A program made the translations under genes and the position numbers. A stretch of DNA of 64,000 bases from Fodinibius roseus (GTDB lineage: Bacteria; Bacteroidota; Rhodothermia; Balneolales; Balneolaceae). Below, one piece after another: positions 11,527 through 61,248 of this stretch; positions within the stretch are counted from its first letter, which is position 1; each line of letters begins with the position of its first letter. The notes under the pieces were generated by a model. The model was not told where the DNA came from and searched no databases. It saw only the letters and a list, made by a program, of their open reading frames with translations. The stretch lies in NCBI RefSeq assembly GCF_900129315.1, contig NZ_FQUS01000006.1, positions 1 to 64,000 of the forward strand, read 5' to 3'.

Positions 11527-11658
11527 AGAAGGTTGTGTGAAACAAGGATTTTTGGTCAAGACCAGAGGGTTTTAAAACTGCAGCATATTGAGTATATGTT
11601 AGAATTTGAAAAGCGCAATTATTAAGAGGTTAGAAAAAACCGATTTACAAAGCCTTCT
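11527..11658 (+). repeat. 145-bp family repeat, copy 1
   Basis: About 132 bp bounded by AGAAGG and CCTTCT with imperfect inverted ends (AGAAGGTTGTGTGAAAC against the reverse complement of the right end, AGAAGGCTTTGTAAATCG). The interior AAAACTGCAGCATAT and GAATTTGAAAAGCGCAAT aligns with the copies at 31.1 and 52.0 kb. It lies between the start of ppx and the end of acr3, the only notable content of the 386 bp gap. No coding potential. Confidence 0.7.
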
Positions 11659-31128: not shown

Positions 31129-31277
31129 AAGAAGGCTTTACAAAACCGTTCTTTTAGCCAATATCTGCATTTTCGCACCTTCAAAGTCCTCACATATGTC
31201 TTCTCTTATATGCTGTAGTTTTGAATGCGTTCAGGTATTGATATTGAACAAAACTCCCGGTTTTTAAAAGGCTTCTT
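31129..31277 (-). repeat. 145-bp family repeat, copy 2 (best-preserved ends)
   Basis: 149 bp with 20-bp terminal inverted repeats, AAGAAGGCTTTACAAAACCG at 31129-31148 and CGGTTTTTAAAAGGCTTCTT at 31258-31277, agreeing at 17 of 20 positions. The interior aligns with the copies at 34.96, 52.02 and 60.49 kb, including AATATCAATACCTGA in reverse complement. It sits in the 471 bp gap between two divergent genes, 45 bp upstream of the TonB receptor start, so it may carry or interrupt its promoter. No coding frame. Confidence 0.8.
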
Positions 31278-32910: not shown

Positions 32911-34956
32911 ATGTCTGATAATTACCGAGCCCTAACCCGCACATACCGGCCCGTCTCATTCGATGATATCGTATCGCAGGAGCATGTCAGCAGCACGCTG
33001 AAAAATGCCATCAGCCAGAACCGGCTGGCCCATGCATATATGTTCTGCGGTCCGCGCGGGGTGGGCAAAACATCCATGGCACGCGTGCTGGCCCGCACTG
33101 TCAACCAGATTGACCGGGAAGTCGACGGCGAGTCACTGAACAAGACGCTGAATGTGGTTGAGATCGATGCCGCCTCGAACAACAGTGTGGATGATATTCG
33201 CGACCTGCGGGAGCGCGTACGCATTCCGCCCCAGAACGGGCGCTACAAGGTGTACATCATCGATGAGGTGCACATGCTCAGCAAGCAGGCCTTCAATGCC
33301 CTGCTGAAAACGCTGGAAGAACCCCCCGATCATATCATTTTTATTTTTGCGACCACGGAGCCCCACAAGGTATTGCCGACGATCCTCTCTCGCGTACAGC
33401 GGTTCGACTTCAAACGCATAGGAATTGAAGACATCGTAGCCCGCCTTAAAAAAGTCTGCCGTGATGAACATATCAGCATTGATGAAGAATCGCTTCATGT
33501 GATCGCAAAGAAAGCAGACGGGGCGTTGCGTGACGCATTGGGACTGCTGGACCAGGCCATTGCGTTTTGCGGCAATGACATTCAGCACGAAGAACTCCTC
33601 CGGGCGCTGAATGTGGTGAGTACGGAGCGGATGTTCGATTTCATGAAGACGGTAGAGCAGCAGGATGCGGGGCGGGGGCTTGAACTCATTGACGACCTGC
33701 TGCATGAGGGCTATGATATCCAGGAATACCTGGTGGGACTTACCGAGCATATCCGGAATCTCTATGTCGCCCGAAAATCGGAAAAGATGCACCTGGTGGA
33801 AGCCTCTGCAGAGACCAAAAAGCGGTATAACGTAGCCGCAAAGGCTTTTTCTGAAGATGACCTGATGCGTATGCTCCACCTGGTCAGCGAGGCCCAGTAT
33901 AAAATCAAGGAGGCTCAACAGCCGAAAATACAGTTTGAAATCACCCTGCTGAAGCTGATCCATATGGAGCGCAGCCAGAATCTGAATACGCTCATCTCCG
34001 AACTCCGGCAATTAAAAAAAAAGCTCCGTAACCAGCCGCGGTCAGACCTGATGTCAGTATCCCCGGGACAGGGGACCAGCGGCCGGGACGGGGCCCAAAA
34101 CGGGACGGCAGAGACCGCAGATAACCAATCGCCTGCGGCTGAAGAAGGCGGGCAAAAGGAAGAGAAGGGGAACAGGCGAGAGCAAGAGGATACAGATTCG
34201 GATGCGGAGGTTGATGTTGATCCTGAACCGGAGGCCGATATTGATGCGGAGGCGGAACCCGAACATACATCCGGACCGGCGCCCAAAACCGGTCCGGCCC
34301 AAAAAAGCGCCGGCAAACAGTCTTCGGGGACGGAACCAGATCACTCTCCGGCCCCGGACCCAGCTTCTTCTTCACCGCCCACGCCCGATTCTTCGGCGGA
34401 GCCGGCACATATACAAAAGGAATCCTCCAGCTCCCGCCCGGACCGTTCGTCCCCCGCAGATAGCTTCGACCGCATCTTTGATGATACCTCACTGGGCGAG
34501 CAAACGCCTTCTGGTGAATCATCTGCAACACCCGATACCGAGGCAGCTGCTCCGCCCGCTCCCAGGCGCGCGCCCGGCGATGTGACCCTCGATGAGGTCG
34601 GTAAGCAGTGGGAGGATTTTATTGAGCATCTCCGGAAGGAAGTTCCCCAGATGCTTTACTTTCAGATGCAGCGCGTAGAGCCCGTCAGCTTGGAAAAGGG
34701 GACCCTCCTGCTGCGCTGCAACGACGACTTTGCCAAAAAAATCGTCGACGAAAACAGCCGTCAGCTGGGTAAAATTTTAGAACAACAGATCGATGCTTTC
34801 CTCCATATTGACTGCCGGGTACAAAGGAACAACGACAACGCTCAGCAATCTGAAAGTCCCTATGAACGATTTAAGAAGCTCCAGGAACGCGACCCGACCA
34901 TAAAAACGTTGGTAGATCTCTTCGGAGCGGAGCTCGATTACAACCTGAACCAATAA
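32911..34956 (+). CDS. dnaX: DNA polymerase III subunit gamma/tau
   Basis: Clamp-loader subunit, 681 aa. AAA+ domain with Walker A CGPRGVGKTSMAR, Walker B VYIIDEVHML, sensor I FATTEPHKV and SRC-like SRVQRFDF. The usual four-cysteine zinc module between Walker A and EIDAASNNSVDD is missing; the loop NQIDREVDGESLNKTLNVVE contains no Cys. After domain III (to about 370) comes a long acidic, Pro-rich linker (about 375-540) and a conserved C-terminal tau-like domain (EEFIEHLRK-type WEDFIEHLRKEVPQML). It heads a dnaX-ybaB-recR cluster. No frameshift signal was seen. Confidence 0.95.
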   Translation: MSDNYRALTRTYRPVSFDDIVSQEHVSSTLKNAISQNRLAHAYMFCGPRGVGKTSMARVLARTVNQIDREVDGESLNKTLNVVEIDAASNNSVDDIRDLRERVRIPPQNGRYKVYIIDEVHMLSKQAFNALLKTLEEPPDHIIFIFATTEPHKVLPTILSRVQRFDFKRIGIEDIVARLKKVCRDEHISIDEESLHVIAKKADGALRDALGLLDQAIAFCGNDIQHEELLRALNVVSTERMFDFMKTVEQQDAGRGLELIDDLLHEGYDIQEYLVGLTEHIRNLYVARKSEKMHLVEASAETKKRYNVAAKAFSEDDLMRMLHLVSEAQYKIKEAQQPKIQFEITLLKLIHMERSQNLNTLISELRQLKKKLRNQPRSDLMSVSPGQGTSGRDGAQNGTAETADNQSPAAEEGGQKEEKGNRREQEDTDSDAEVDVDPEPEADIDAEAEPEHTSGPAPKTGPAQKSAGKQSSGTEPDHSPAPDPASSSPPTPDSSAEPAHIQKESSSSRPDRSSPADSFDRIFDDTSLGEQTPSGESSATPDTEAAAPPAPRRAPGDVTLDEVGKQWEDFIEHLRKEVPQMLYFQMQRVEPVSLEKGTLLLRCNDDFAKKIVDENSRQLGKILEQQIDAFLHIDCRVQRNNDNAQQSESPYERFKKLQERDPTIKTLVDLFGAELDYNLNQ

Positions 34957-35105
34957 AAGAGGGCTTTGAAAACCAGCGGTTTTATTCAATATCAACCCCT
35001 GAGCGATATAAAAACCGCAGTGTATATACAGGCAATACATGATGAGAATTTTAAAATCGCAAAAAAGTATAAACTGTGTAAAACAACAGTTTTTTCAGAG
35101 ATTTT
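34957..35105 (+). repeat. 145-bp family repeat, copy 3
   Basis: About 149 bp beginning AAGAGGGCTTTG directly after the dnaX stop codon. The interior TTCAATATCAACCCCTGAGCG differs from the 31.1 kb copy (reverse complement) at few positions, and GAGAATTTTAAAATCGCAAAA also aligns. The right end (about AACAACAGTTTTTTCAGAG) is more degraded. It separates dnaX from ybaB by 236 bp and has no coding frame. Confidence 0.7.
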
Positions 35106-35192
35106 AAAATTAATAAATCGATAATCACACAGAATGAACGGAACGGTTACCCGTTCTGTACACATGAACCTTAATACAAATGGAGTATCATT

Positions 35193-50549: not shown

Positions 50550-52016
50550 ATGGCTAAAAAAATCACTTCCAAATCCGAAGATTTTTCGCAGTGGTATCAA
50601 GACGTCATCCGTGAAGCCAAGCTGGCCGACCACTCCCCGGTGCGCGGCTGCATGGTGATCCGTCCCAACGGCTTTGCGCTCTGGGAAAACATGAAGGCGG
50701 CGCTGGACCAGATGTTTAAGGATACCGGCCATGAGAACGCCTATTTCCCTCTTTTTATTCCCAAATCTTTTCTGTCGAAAGAAGCACAACATGTGGAAGG
50801 GTTTGCCAAGGAGTGCGCAGTCGTGACACACAGCCGGCTGAAAAGCGCGGATGGCGGCGTGGAGGTGGATCCGGAGTCGAAGCTGGAGGAAGAACTCATC
50901 GTCCGCCCCACTTCCGAAACCATTATCTGGGATTCTTACCGAAACTGGATCCAGTCGTACCGCGACCTGCCGATCCTCATCAACCAGTGGGCCAACGTCG
51001 TTCGCTGGGAGATGCGCACGCGACTTTTCCTCAGAACCATGGAATTTTTGTGGCAGGAGGGACACACGGCCCATGCGACCAAAGAGGAAGCGGTCGAGGA
51101 AACCAGGAGAATGCTGGAGGTCTATCGCACTTTTGCCGAGGAATATATGGCCATGCCGGTAACAACCGGGGTCAAAACGGAATCAGAGCGGTTTGCCGGG
51201 GCGGTGGATACCTATTGCATCGAAACGCTGCTCCAGGATAACAAGGCGCTGCAGGCCGGAACCTCTCACTTTCTGGGACAGAATTTTGCCAGGGCCTTTG
51301 ACGTAAAATTCCAGAGCTCCGAGGGACAGCATGAATATGTCTGGGCGACCAGCTGGGGGGTTTCAACGCGGCTTATAGGGGGACTTATCATGACGCATTC
51401 CGATGACCAGGGACTGATCCTGCCTCCCAAACTGGCTCCCGACCAAGTGGTCATTGTGCCCATATGGAAAAGCGAGGAAGAAAAGAAGAACGTTCTTGCC
51501 TATTGCGATGAAATCATCAGCGAACTGAAGGAACTGGACGTGCGCGTGAAGCTCGACGATCGCGAGAACATGAGTCCCGGCTGGAAATTCAACGAACACG
51601 AAGCCGCCGGCATCCCGTTGCGCCTGACCATCGGTCCCCGCGATCTCAAGAACAATAACGCCGAACTGGCCCGTCGCGATACCGGCGACAAGGATATCGT
51701 CGACCGCGAGGGACTTGCTGAAAAAGTCGCTGACCTGCTGGATTCCATCCAGGATGAGCTTTTCAACACCGCCCGGGATCGGATTGCCTCGAACACGCAC
51801 TCTGCAGACTCCTATGAGGAGTTCAGGGAAATTATTGAAGAGGAGGGCGGTTTCGTCTATGCACACTGGGATGGCACAGCGGAGACCGAAGAAAAAATTA
51901 AAGACGAAACCAAGGCAACCATCCGTTGTATTCCCCTCGACGACGGGGAGGAAGGCAAATGCATGGTTACGGGCAAGCCTTCAAAGCAAAAAGTGCTTTT
52001 TGCCCGCGCTTATTAA
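50550..52016 (+). CDS. proS: Prolyl-tRNA synthetase, archaeal/eukaryote type
   Basis: Charges tRNA-Pro. The 488 aa protein has the short ProS form without the bacterial editing (INS) domain: class II motif 1 region with [20 protein letters not shown], motif 2 [26 protein letters not shown], motif 3 in [24 protein letters not shown], the anticodon-binding domain ([26 protein letters not shown]), and a C-terminal zinc-binding-like tail ending in Tyr (VLFARAY). The final Tyr is typical of this type. It is followed by a repeat copy 2 bp after the stop codon. Confidence 0.96.
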
Positions 52017-52018
52017 TT

Positions 52019-52163
52019 AAAGAGGGTTTTGAAAAACCATGAATTTTGATCATCATCACTCCCTGAGGTGAATTCAAAACCACAGCATATAAAACATATT
52101 TGAGGAATTGAATCCGCGAAAATGCGGCGATAGGTCAAAGGAACGGTTTTGTAAAACTTGCTT
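52019..52163 (+). repeat. 145-bp family repeat, copy 4
   Basis: About 145 bp starting AAGAGGGTTTTGAAAAACC 2 bp after the proS stop, and ending GGAACGGTTTTGTAAAAC then TTGCTT. The ends are imperfect inverted repeats. The interior AATTCAAAACCACAGCATAT and GCGAAAATGCGG aligns to the 31.1 kb copy in reverse complement and to the 11.5 kb copy. It occupies half of the 285 bp gap before nnr; the rest is the nnr leader. Confidence 0.8.
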
Positions 52164-52301
52164 AAAAAATTGGTATATATTAACCAATTTGTGTTGGATC
52201 GAATATCCGCAGATAACAACGGAAACGTAACGTATTCCCCGGTTTTCTGTTACAATTAATAACAATTACCGGGCGTTCACTGCTTAATAAATGATGGTAA
52301 C

Positions 52302-54512: not shown

Positions 54513-55181
54513 ATGTCTGATCCAAAAAACAGAAGAAAGAAACCTGAAGCCGATCTTCGCAAGTACTATACGCTTTTCTGGGAAATTGGGATGATCGTCG
54601 CGTTACTGCTTTTCATTGTAGCAATGAAAGTGGACTTAAGGACTGAAAAGCAGGATGTGAACCTTGTTCAGGAGCAGGAAGTTGTGGAAATGGAGGAAGT
54701 GATCCAAACCCAGCAGCAGGAGCAGCCCCCACCCCCGCCCAGACCACAGGTGCCGGTGGAAGTGCCCAACGATGAAATCATTGAGGACCAGGACATCAAC
54801 CTGGATGCTGATCTCAATATGGACCAGCCGCTGGAGATGCCGCCCCCTCCTGAACAGGAAGAAGAAGAGGATGAGGAAGACTTCTTTGTAGCCGTAGAAC
54901 AAATGCCGGAACTGATTGGCGGTCTTGGCGAGCTGCAGCAAAAAATTAACTACCCGGAACGGGCACGTCGTGCCGGTATTGAAGGTCGTGTAATCATCCA
55001 GTTTATTGTGACCGAACAGGGAAATGTGGAAGACCCGAAGGTTATCCGTGGCATTGGAGGAGGCTGCGATCAAGAAGCCCTGCGTGTGGTCAAGCAGGCC
55101 AAGTTTGAGCCGGGTCGTCAGCGAGGCAATCCCGTCCGCGTGCAGTACAGCCTGCCCATTATCTTCCGGCTTCAAAGTTAA
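54513..55181 (+). CDS. tonB: Energy transducer TonB, first copy
   Basis: Carries proton-motive energy to TonB-dependent receptors. The 222 aa protein has a cytoplasmic start, an N-terminal membrane anchor (EIGMIVALLLFIVAMKVDL), a Pro/Glu-rich periplasmic spacer (VIQTQQQEQPPPPPRPQVPV, PPPPEQEEEEDEEDFF) and a C-terminal TonB domain (INYPERARRAGIEGRVIIQF, VTEQGNVEDPKVIRGIGGGCD, PVRVQYSLPIIF). A paralogue lies 457 bp downstream. Large DNA blocks between them are almost identical. A terminator follows. Confidence 0.95.
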   Translation: MSDPKNRRKKPEADLRKYYTLFWEIGMIVALLLFIVAMKVDLRTEKQDVNLVQEQEVVEMEEVIQTQQQEQPPPPPRPQVPVEVPNDEIIEDQDINLDADLNMDQPLEMPPPPEQEEEEDEEDFFVAVEQMPELIGGLGELQQKINYPERARRAGIEGRVIIQFIVTEQGNVEDPKVIRGIGGGCDQEALRVVKQAKFEPGRQRGNPVRVQYSLPIIFRLQS

Positions 55182-55638: not shown

Positions 55639-56295
55639 ATGCGTTACGAACGAAAAAAACCTACATCAGACTTGAGAAAATACTATACCGTCTTCCTGCA
55701 ATTGGGATTGGTAGCGGTACTACTACTCTTTATTGTAGCAATGAAAGTAGACCTCAGGTCGGAACAACAAGACACTGACTTGACCGAAGAGCAGGAAGTC
55801 GTAGAAATGGAGGAAGTGATCCAAACCCAGCAGCAGGAGCAGCCCCCACCCCCGCCCAAACCGCAGGTGCCGGTGGAAGTGCCCAACGATGAAATCATTG
55901 AGGACCAGGACATCAACCTGGATGCCGATATGAACTTGAATGAACCCATGGACATGCCTCCCCCTCCGGAAGAAAAGGAAGAGGAGGAAGAGGACTTTTT
56001 TGTAGCTGTCGAGCAGATGCCGGAGCTTATCGGCGGGCTCGGTGAGCTGCAGCAAAAAATTAACTATCCTGAACGAGCACGTCGTGCCGGTATTGAAGGC
56101 CGGGTAATCATCCAGTTTATTGTGACCGAACAGGGAAATGTGGAAGACCCGAAGGTTATCCGCGGCATCGGCGGCGGAGCTGATGAAGAGGCCCTGCGTG
56201 TGGTCAAGCAGGCCAAGTTCAAGCCGGGACAGCAGCGAGGAAATCCGGTCCGCGTGCAGTACAGCCTGCCCATTATTTTCCAACTTCAAAACTGA
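55639..56295 (+). CDS. tonB: Energy transducer TonB, second copy
   Basis: A 218 aa paralogue of the gene at 54513, with the same order: short cytoplasmic start, anchor (LQLGLVAVLLLFIVAMKVDL), Pro/Glu-rich spacer, and TonB C-domain ending PVRVQYSLPIIFQLQN. The spacer start and the C-terminal domain are nearly identical at DNA level to the first copy, while the N-terminus and the middle of the spacer differ (DMNLNEPMDMPPPPEEKEEE). This suggests gene conversion within a tandem duplication. Likely partners are the receptors at 28.3 and 43.6 kb and elsewhere. Confidence 0.95.
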   Translation: MRYERKKPTSDLRKYYTVFLQLGLVAVLLLFIVAMKVDLRSEQQDTDLTEEQEVVEMEEVIQTQQQEQPPPPPKPQVPVEVPNDEIIEDQDINLDADMNLNEPMDMPPPPEEKEEEEEDFFVAVEQMPELIGGLGELQQKINYPERARRAGIEGRVIIQFIVTEQGNVEDPKVIRGIGGGADEEALRVVKQAKFKPGQQRGNPVRVQYSLPIIFQLQN

Positions 56296-57887: not shown

Positions 57888-57930
57888 CAGGGCTTTTGCA
57901 AAACAGTTTTTTATCCCCTAATGTCACGCT
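57888..57930 (-). repeat. 145-bp family repeat, partial copy
   Basis: AGGGCTTTTGCAAAACAG with the following T tract matches the conserved terminal part of the family; the full copy at 60.5 kb has AGGGCTTTTGCAAAACCG in reverse complement. Similarity fades after about 40 bp. It lies 5 bp after the DUF1080 stop. The rest of the 234 bp gap to the next gene shows nothing certain. Confidence 0.55.
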
Positions 57931-60487: not shown

Positions 60488-60632
60488 AAGAGGGCGGGAA
60501 GGGTTGCAGAGGTTTTTTTCAAGGTCAGGGGCAGAGGGAGGTTAAATTAAAGCATATAGCCTATAGGCGAGGATTTCAACCAACCGATAAAGCCTGCATT
60601 GGGCAAAAGAACGGTTTTGCAAAAGCCCTCTT
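60488..60632 (+). repeat. 145-bp family repeat, copy 5
   Basis: 145 bp bounded by AAGAGGGC (60488-60495) and GCCCTCTT (60625-60632). The interior TTAAATTAAAGCATAT and GGGCAAAAGAACGGTTTTGC aligns with the 31.1 and 52.0 kb copies. Its right end overlaps the TAA stop of the leftward rhomboid gene, and it fills the gap between the convergent serC and rhomboid genes. Confidence 0.75.
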
Positions 60633-61248
60633 ATATAAAACCGAATACGGTTAACAAATGGTCGATCGTATCGGGTACGAAAACCACTAAATAAACCATC
60701 CCCCAGATGGCCCCTGCGAGATGCGCTTCATGGTTAATTTTGCCACGCGCCTGTTTGCTCGCATACATGCTGTACAGCAGGTAAGCAATCGCAAAGACAA
60801 AAGCCGGTATGGGGATGGGAATGAGCATTAAATATATATTTTCCAGCGGAAACAAAAGGATAAAGGCAAAAAGTACCGAACCCACCGCCCCGGATGCTCC
60901 CAGTGTCGCATAATTGGGGTCATTCCGGAATTTTATTACGGAGGGGATACCTGCCACAATCAGTCCCGTCAGGTAAAGTCCCAAAAAATAGTACGGGCCC
61001 AATAACTGCTCCATCACGGGGCCAAAAAAATAAAGCGTGAACATATTCACAAAAAGATGTCCTATATTGGCGTGCAGGAACCCCGAACTCAGAAGCTCGT
61101 ACCAGGTATTTTCGCGAACGGTTCGATAAGGTTTTAGGTACCCGGCCTGTAACAAACCGGGAGTTGTATACAGTGCTGCCAGCGAAATGAGTGCATTAGC
61201 TGCAATCAAATAAAACGACACCGGGTAGTTTGTAATAAAACTTTGCAT
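60631..61248 (-). CDS. Rhomboid intramembrane serine protease
   Basis: A 205 aa integral membrane protease with about six membrane segments. Catalytic Ser119 in TLGASGAVGSVLFAF (GxSG) and His176 in INHEAHLAGAIWG complete the dyad, and WYELLSSGFLHANIGHLFVNMFTLYFFG carries the conserved HxxxN-like region of TM2. No extra cytoplasmic domain. Substrate unknown. The start at 61248 gives MQSFITNYPVSF. Its stop overlaps a copy of the repeat. Confidence 0.9.
   Translation of the reverse strand: MQSFITNYPVSFYLIAANALISLAALYTTPGLLQAGYLKPYRTVRENTWYELLSSGFLHANIGHLFVNMFTLYFFGPVMEQLLGPYYFLGLYLTGLIVAGIPSVIKFRNDPNYATLGASGAVGSVLFAFILLFPLENIYLMLIPIPIPAFVFAIAYLLYSMYASKQARGKINHEAHLAGAIWGMVYLVVFVPDTIDHLLTVFGFI

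Follow-up and report, generated by a model that had tools for sequence, protein, structure and literature searches.

The described systems most similar to the repeat analyzed here are MITEAba12 of Acinetobacter, the ERIC/RU-1 sequences of enterobacteria, and the REP/BIME elements with their RAYT transposase. MITEAba12 is about 110-140 bp long, has no ORF, inserts at AT-rich targets, and has its inverted ends and target duplication length in common with an insertion sequence (IS) (PMC6382973). ERIC, or RU-1 (127 bp), is palindromic, intergenic, present in high copy number, and sometimes located at gene 3′ ends (PMC2759123, PMC2229807); ERIC fusions change the C-termini of proteins (PMC2759123). 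REPs are dispersed palindromes outside genes and are 20-40 bp in length (PMC3733652).

The repeat in this Balneolales genome is comparable in size to MITEAba12 and ERIC: its copies align across ∼140 bp, and the unit is palindromic and has no ORF. It qualifies as a MITE, the term for small non-autonomous transposons whose ends are inverted, being short, non-coding, and dispersed in multiple copies (118 full copies in 1.98 Mb), with terminal inverted repeats (GAGGGCTTTGAAAAACC ... GGTTTTGCAAAGGCCTC) and a target duplication of fixed length (5 bp). Both inverted ends begin GAGGGCTTTG, with G as the first base. Unlike MITEAba12, it has a probable partner in the IS5 family, 5-bp duplications of the form TNNNA, and a copy number of roughly 300; it also folds over its whole length into a long conserved hairpin and is biased toward stop codons. 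From ERIC, it is set apart by description rather than by sequence, namely by the 5-bp duplications and the probable IS5-family partner and, in contrast to the ERIC fusions, by mostly preserving the stops of adjacent genes. Unlike REP/BIME, it is ∼140 bp long with clear target duplications, and a REP/RAYT origin was rejected because the Y1 (HUH) transposase (PF01797) is absent from this genome (control genomes were positive). A limited literature search found no report of MITEs in Balneolales. Searches of Rfam found nothing that matches the repeat (the window yields tRNAs only, with nothing credible at the element loci), and carriage by plasmids or phages was rejected, since plasmid and phage collections also returned no match.

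The window, i.e., the whole 64,000-nt stretch of DNA analyzed, contains copies both at stop codons and away from them (Table 1). The dnaX TAA (34954-34956) is taken in by the duplication TAAAA, and the element proper begins at G34959. After proS, the TAA (52014-52016) is followed by TTAAA, and the element starts at 52022. The copy at rhomboid ends at 60630, directly against the stop codon (60631-60633, minus strand); it is nearly palindromic, scores best on the plus strand, and has no matching duplication. The dnaX, proS, and rhomboid domains were all confirmed by Pfam.

Table 1. Copies of the MITE and their target-site duplications (TSD) in the 64,000-nt window.
Feature	Position	Strand	Evidence
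Left target duplication TAAAA, its TAA being the dnaX stop codon	34954..34958	+	exact 5-bp match to TAAAA past element
Full copy after dnaX	34959..35104	+	cmsearch 112 bits; boundaries by TSD analysis
Full copy after proS	52022..52161	+	cmsearch 104 bits; exact TSD
TTAAA duplicates bordering the proS copy	52017-52021 and 52162-52166		exact TSD
Diverged full copy abutting the rhomboid stop	60490..60630	+	cmsearch 54.6 bits, E 2e-7
Full copy away from stops	31131..31275	-	cmsearch 124 bits; exact TSD
Diverged full copy away from stops	11528..11657	+	cmsearch 65.9 bits, E 1.5e-9
Unproven 17-bp match, perhaps left over from a MITE end	57888..57905	+	pattern match, 1 mismatch

An earlier note on this DNA had located copies at dnaX, proS, and rhomboid to within 2 bp of the positions found here, and had described copies of the repeat as placed at stop codons. 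This description holds for these three copies but not for two full copies that the note missed, one (11528-11657) lying 108 nt from a start and 148 nt from a stop, and the other (31131-31275) lying 46 and 280 nt from starts; the list of stop-adjacent copies is selective. At 57888, where a partial copy had been claimed, there is a 17-bp match to one MITE end, although no profile search found this fragment, and the degenerate end pattern has nine matches in the window vs. 3.0 expected.

Two further features of the window were observed. A short inverted repeat (GAACGGAACGGTTACCCGTTC; 35134-35161) lies between the dnaX copy and ybaB, and a similar inverted repeat occurs 3′ of the dnaX stop in sister species without the element; it is perhaps a native terminator or leader. 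The other is a tandem duplication: the coding regions at 54513-55181 and 55639-56295 each specify a protein with a C-terminal TonB domain, and their DNA is 85-88% identical over blocks of 206-300 bp.

The contiguous stretches analyzed total 1.98 Mb, or 39% of the 5.08-Mb genome, and harbor 118 full and 19 partial copies. Because spacing is Poisson-like (1.19 copies per 20 kb, variance 1.14), these full copies extrapolate to roughly 300 in the entire genome; a model search of the genome recovered at least 150. The copies are old, with a median identity to the consensus of 78%. The element is present in 13 of the 58 genomes searched (this genome included); most species of the same genus gave no match, but other families of the order carry it, the named carriers being Balneolaceae and Balneolales metagenome assemblies.

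The length of the target duplication was determined by counting all pairs of boundary offsets, and on this basis a TA dinucleotide duplication, read by eye, gave way to one of 5 bp. Exact 5-bp duplicates flank 17 of 109 copies (0.9 expected), and duplicates matching at four or more of the five positions flank 42 (7.3 expected). The target has the AT-rich form TNNNA, in which T is favored as the first base and A as the fifth.

A candidate source of mobility was reached only via a decayed element in this genome. The one DDE_Tnp_1 gene found here is part of an 863-bp element with MITE-like ends (L264 1404-2266; G000:C42, about 234 kb), which is shorter than its ∼1.28-kb relatives and lacks part of the transposase; an intact cognate IS was not found in this genome. 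Across the order, 15 further genomes contain relatives of the decayed element, some of these relatives being complete at ∼1.28 kb, with ends like those of the MITE (e.g., GAAGGCTTTGAAAAACCC) and exact 5-bp duplications (TATTA, TTAAA, ATTAA, and TATAT); a 998-bp relative is flanked by TTTTA. Three of the relatives' proteins were scanned and belong to the IS5 family (NCBIfam NF033581, 237-268 bits, cut-off 140). The Balneolales members of this family thus have both their ends, which resemble GRRGNCTTTGNAAAACC, and their 5-bp duplications in common with the MITE, which is itself without a transposase, and these shared features suggest that an IS5-family transposase probably moves the MITE in trans. 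IS5 subgroups make target duplications of 2-4, 8, or 9 bp, and the 5-bp duplication found here differs from these lengths. Other candidate partners were discarded: in the first stretches, 34 pairs of MITE-like ends (≤3 mismatches) were found, and those inspected contain ordinary genes rather than an autonomous copy, while the PF01609 transposases of six carrier genomes have poorly matching ends (one carrier, G042, has none).

Placement relative to genes was evaluated for 117 of the 118 full copies, using gene ends from a home-made gene caller. No copy lies inside a gene, and 35 of the 117 (about 30%) overlap a stop codon or lie within 15 nt of one; 15 copies overlap a gene end. Among the 102 non-overlapping copies, 22 are 0-15 nt from a stop, compared with 8.2 expected under uniform placement and 8.1 under placement weighted by the target profile of copies that lie at a distance from any stop (P 1.5e-5). 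Because this weighting leaves 22 vs. 8.1, target composition by itself does not account for the excess. The excess is confined to the immediate vicinity of the stop, with five copies at 16-30 nt (6.1 expected) and nine at 31-50 nt (6.8 expected). Near start codons (0-15 nt), copies are depleted, at three vs. 8.9 expected. Separately, a second peak occurs 31-50 nt upstream of start codons (19 vs. 9.8 expected), perhaps where promoters or leaders have their outer limit.

The enrichment recurs under other ways of counting. In a first set of 66 copies in 1.18 Mb, none was inside a gene and 19 were within 6 nt of a stop (2.4 expected under uniform placement), copies that overlap gene ends being counted in. 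When the expectation is conditioned on the gap in which each copy lies, 18 of 110 fall between -2 and 5 nt relative to a stop (7.5 expected), and in other genomes this is the case for nine of 34 (2.7 expected, P 0.0006). Stop-adjacent copies occur in every type of gap that contains a stop. Older copies tend to be nearer to stops (20/51 vs. 15/66), a trend that is not significant (P 0.068). Comparing copy-to-stop distances with random placement, as the earlier note had proposed, therefore yields enrichment rather than the absence of it that would have spoken against the idea. Its view that placement is tighter than random intergenic insertion holds at 0-15 nt, but for only ∼30% of copies, and the preferred target it suspected exists as AT-rich TNNNA, to which stop codons contribute the TA, although the excess persists after weighting for it. 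Both orientations occur, as had been stated (13:11 in the first set).

The history of the stops themselves was examined through orthologues. Those of dnaX end at the same residues (NLNQ, then the stop), the stop being shared with 11 relatives from the genus; two relatives (L196 and L200) have an empty site at the dnaX junction. For 13 stop-adjacent genes, including proS, orthologues were sought in four relatives, and eight genes were comparable: each of the eight has one or more orthologues that stop at the same residue (for proS, in four relatives), so that these stops are ancestral. For three of the eight, one relative is 1-2 residues longer, and for a ninth, partly matched gene (C25:182813), the relative terminates one residue sooner. 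Five of the eight have the element within the stop codon, such that the duplicate gives TA and the first element base gives the G of TAG; in two of these five, the other duplicate still reads the ancestral TAG (TTTTAG, TCTTAG). The excess of MITEs at gene ends is explained in part by the exact rebuilding of the stop when an element lands inside it.

These comparisons bear on the possibility that the elements struck last codons, truncated genes, and supplied new stops, so that targeting of stops is only apparent. Consistent with such a process, 15 copies extend over a gene end, and element bases form part of the stops at junctions (TAG or TGA). One copy (C28:17208), for which no orthologue was found, probably truncated its host gene, given that a sense codon stands in its other duplicate (TCATAC). 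As a general source of the stops, truncation is contradicted by the orthologues, which share the end residue in all eight testable genes, and likewise for dnaX in 11 relatives, and we regard this explanation of the placement as very improbable.

The reading we favor, and hold to be probably correct, is that placement is the product of target taste and of purifying selection on a MITE that is probably mobilized in trans by an IS5-family transposase. This enzyme would cut AT-rich sites and duplicate 5 bp of the form TNNNA; insertions within genes would be lost, while those at or just past a stop would leave the protein intact. Since TA commonly closes the duplicate and both ends of the element start with G, TAG would be rebuilt from TAA or TAG in either orientation. 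We infer that the residual excess at 0-15 nt stems from selection and not from an additional targeting cue. Against this reading, target-weighted insertion accounts for 8.1 of the 22 copies at this distance, with the remainder unexplained; the depletion at 16-50 nt that would accompany purifying selection is absent (14 vs. 12.9 expected); the tendency of older copies toward stops falls short of significance; few of 13 IS copies are near stops; and this genome yielded no intact cognate IS. Alternatively, the transposase would actively prefer gene 3′ ends or the stop context beyond their AT content, with the excess arising at insertion. The sharpness of the excess (0-15 nt only), its persistence after target weighting, and its occurrence in other genomes, including G042, where the copies are alike and so probably young, all point in this direction. 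However, flank profiles are alike near stops and elsewhere, a preference for stops is not evident among the full IS relatives (few of only 13 copies examined are near stops), and just seven of the 38 best-preserved copies in this genome are near stops. We consider active preference unlikely, if the most serious competitor to target taste combined with purifying selection. A more elaborate version, in which stops are safe landing sites by design through an IS5-type cue for 3′ ends, G ends that rebuild TAG, and a conserved hairpin with fixed internal loops that serves the element or the host in the form of a folded nucleic acid, is doubtful.

The hairpin has also been considered as a reason for retention, with stop-adjacent copies kept because it acts in mRNA as a terminator or 3′-end stabilizer; a role at transcript 3′ ends (termination or RNA stability) had been proposed in the earlier note. 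The consensus folds into one long, imperfect, and very stable hairpin (-57.8 kcal/mol, z -7.8), and this fold is common to five genome groups though their stem sequences differ. Across these groups, 27 of the 51 pairs have changed on both sides and 89.4% of cells pair; covariation (0.319) exceeds that of all 500 shuffles (0.152) and of slid alignments (0.08-0.10), where the sequences are related, such that the shuffles do not represent probabilities, and the structure was derived from these groups' own consensus sequences. Within the genome, the copies mostly decay, with 900 cells broken on a single side vs. 171 compensated (104 expected), so that compensatory change is clear between lineages and weak within the genome. 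Compensation in the outer arms of individual copies, suggested by eye, was reduced to positions 3 and 5, the only ones that covary clearly within the genome.

None of the features expected of a terminator is concentrated at stops. The hairpin is not better preserved in stop-adjacent copies than in the rest (MFE/nt, P 0.88; 7.1 vs. 7.6 of 10 outer-arm positions paired). In the direction of the gene, their T-run in the 8 nt past the distal arm is not longer than that of other copies (2.65 vs. 2.88 T, P 0.36), and these copies have no orientation bias in the first set. In E. coli, the ribosome represses hairpins a few nucleotides past a stop, and removes nearly all of the efficiency of a terminator placed about 5 bp after it (PMC4824070). 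Termination by the tightest stop-adjacent copies is unlikely, fold, T-run, and orientation lend the proposed transcript role no support, and retention of copies for such a role is improbable as an account of the placement.

Because the fold is compensated between lineages while single copies decay, constraint seems to act on the mobile lineage rather than on each inserted copy; an alternative for the compensation in the arms is mutational, with one arm copied from the other during replication. In some copies from other Balneolales (L158 and L172), the hairpin tip has been replaced yet is still paired (CCCCGA...TCGGGG in L158 and CCCGAAAGCTCGGG in L172), above conserved internal loops.

Landing at or inside a stop codon constitutes a frame-neutral, harmless entry into essential genes such as dnaX and proS. 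This family offers many copies that differ in age, sister species in which sites are empty, and a transposase that is its likely partner, material with which insertion preference is separable from later selection. Furthermore, the maintenance of the hairpin across Balneolales while single copies decay raises the question of selection on the mobile lineage itself.
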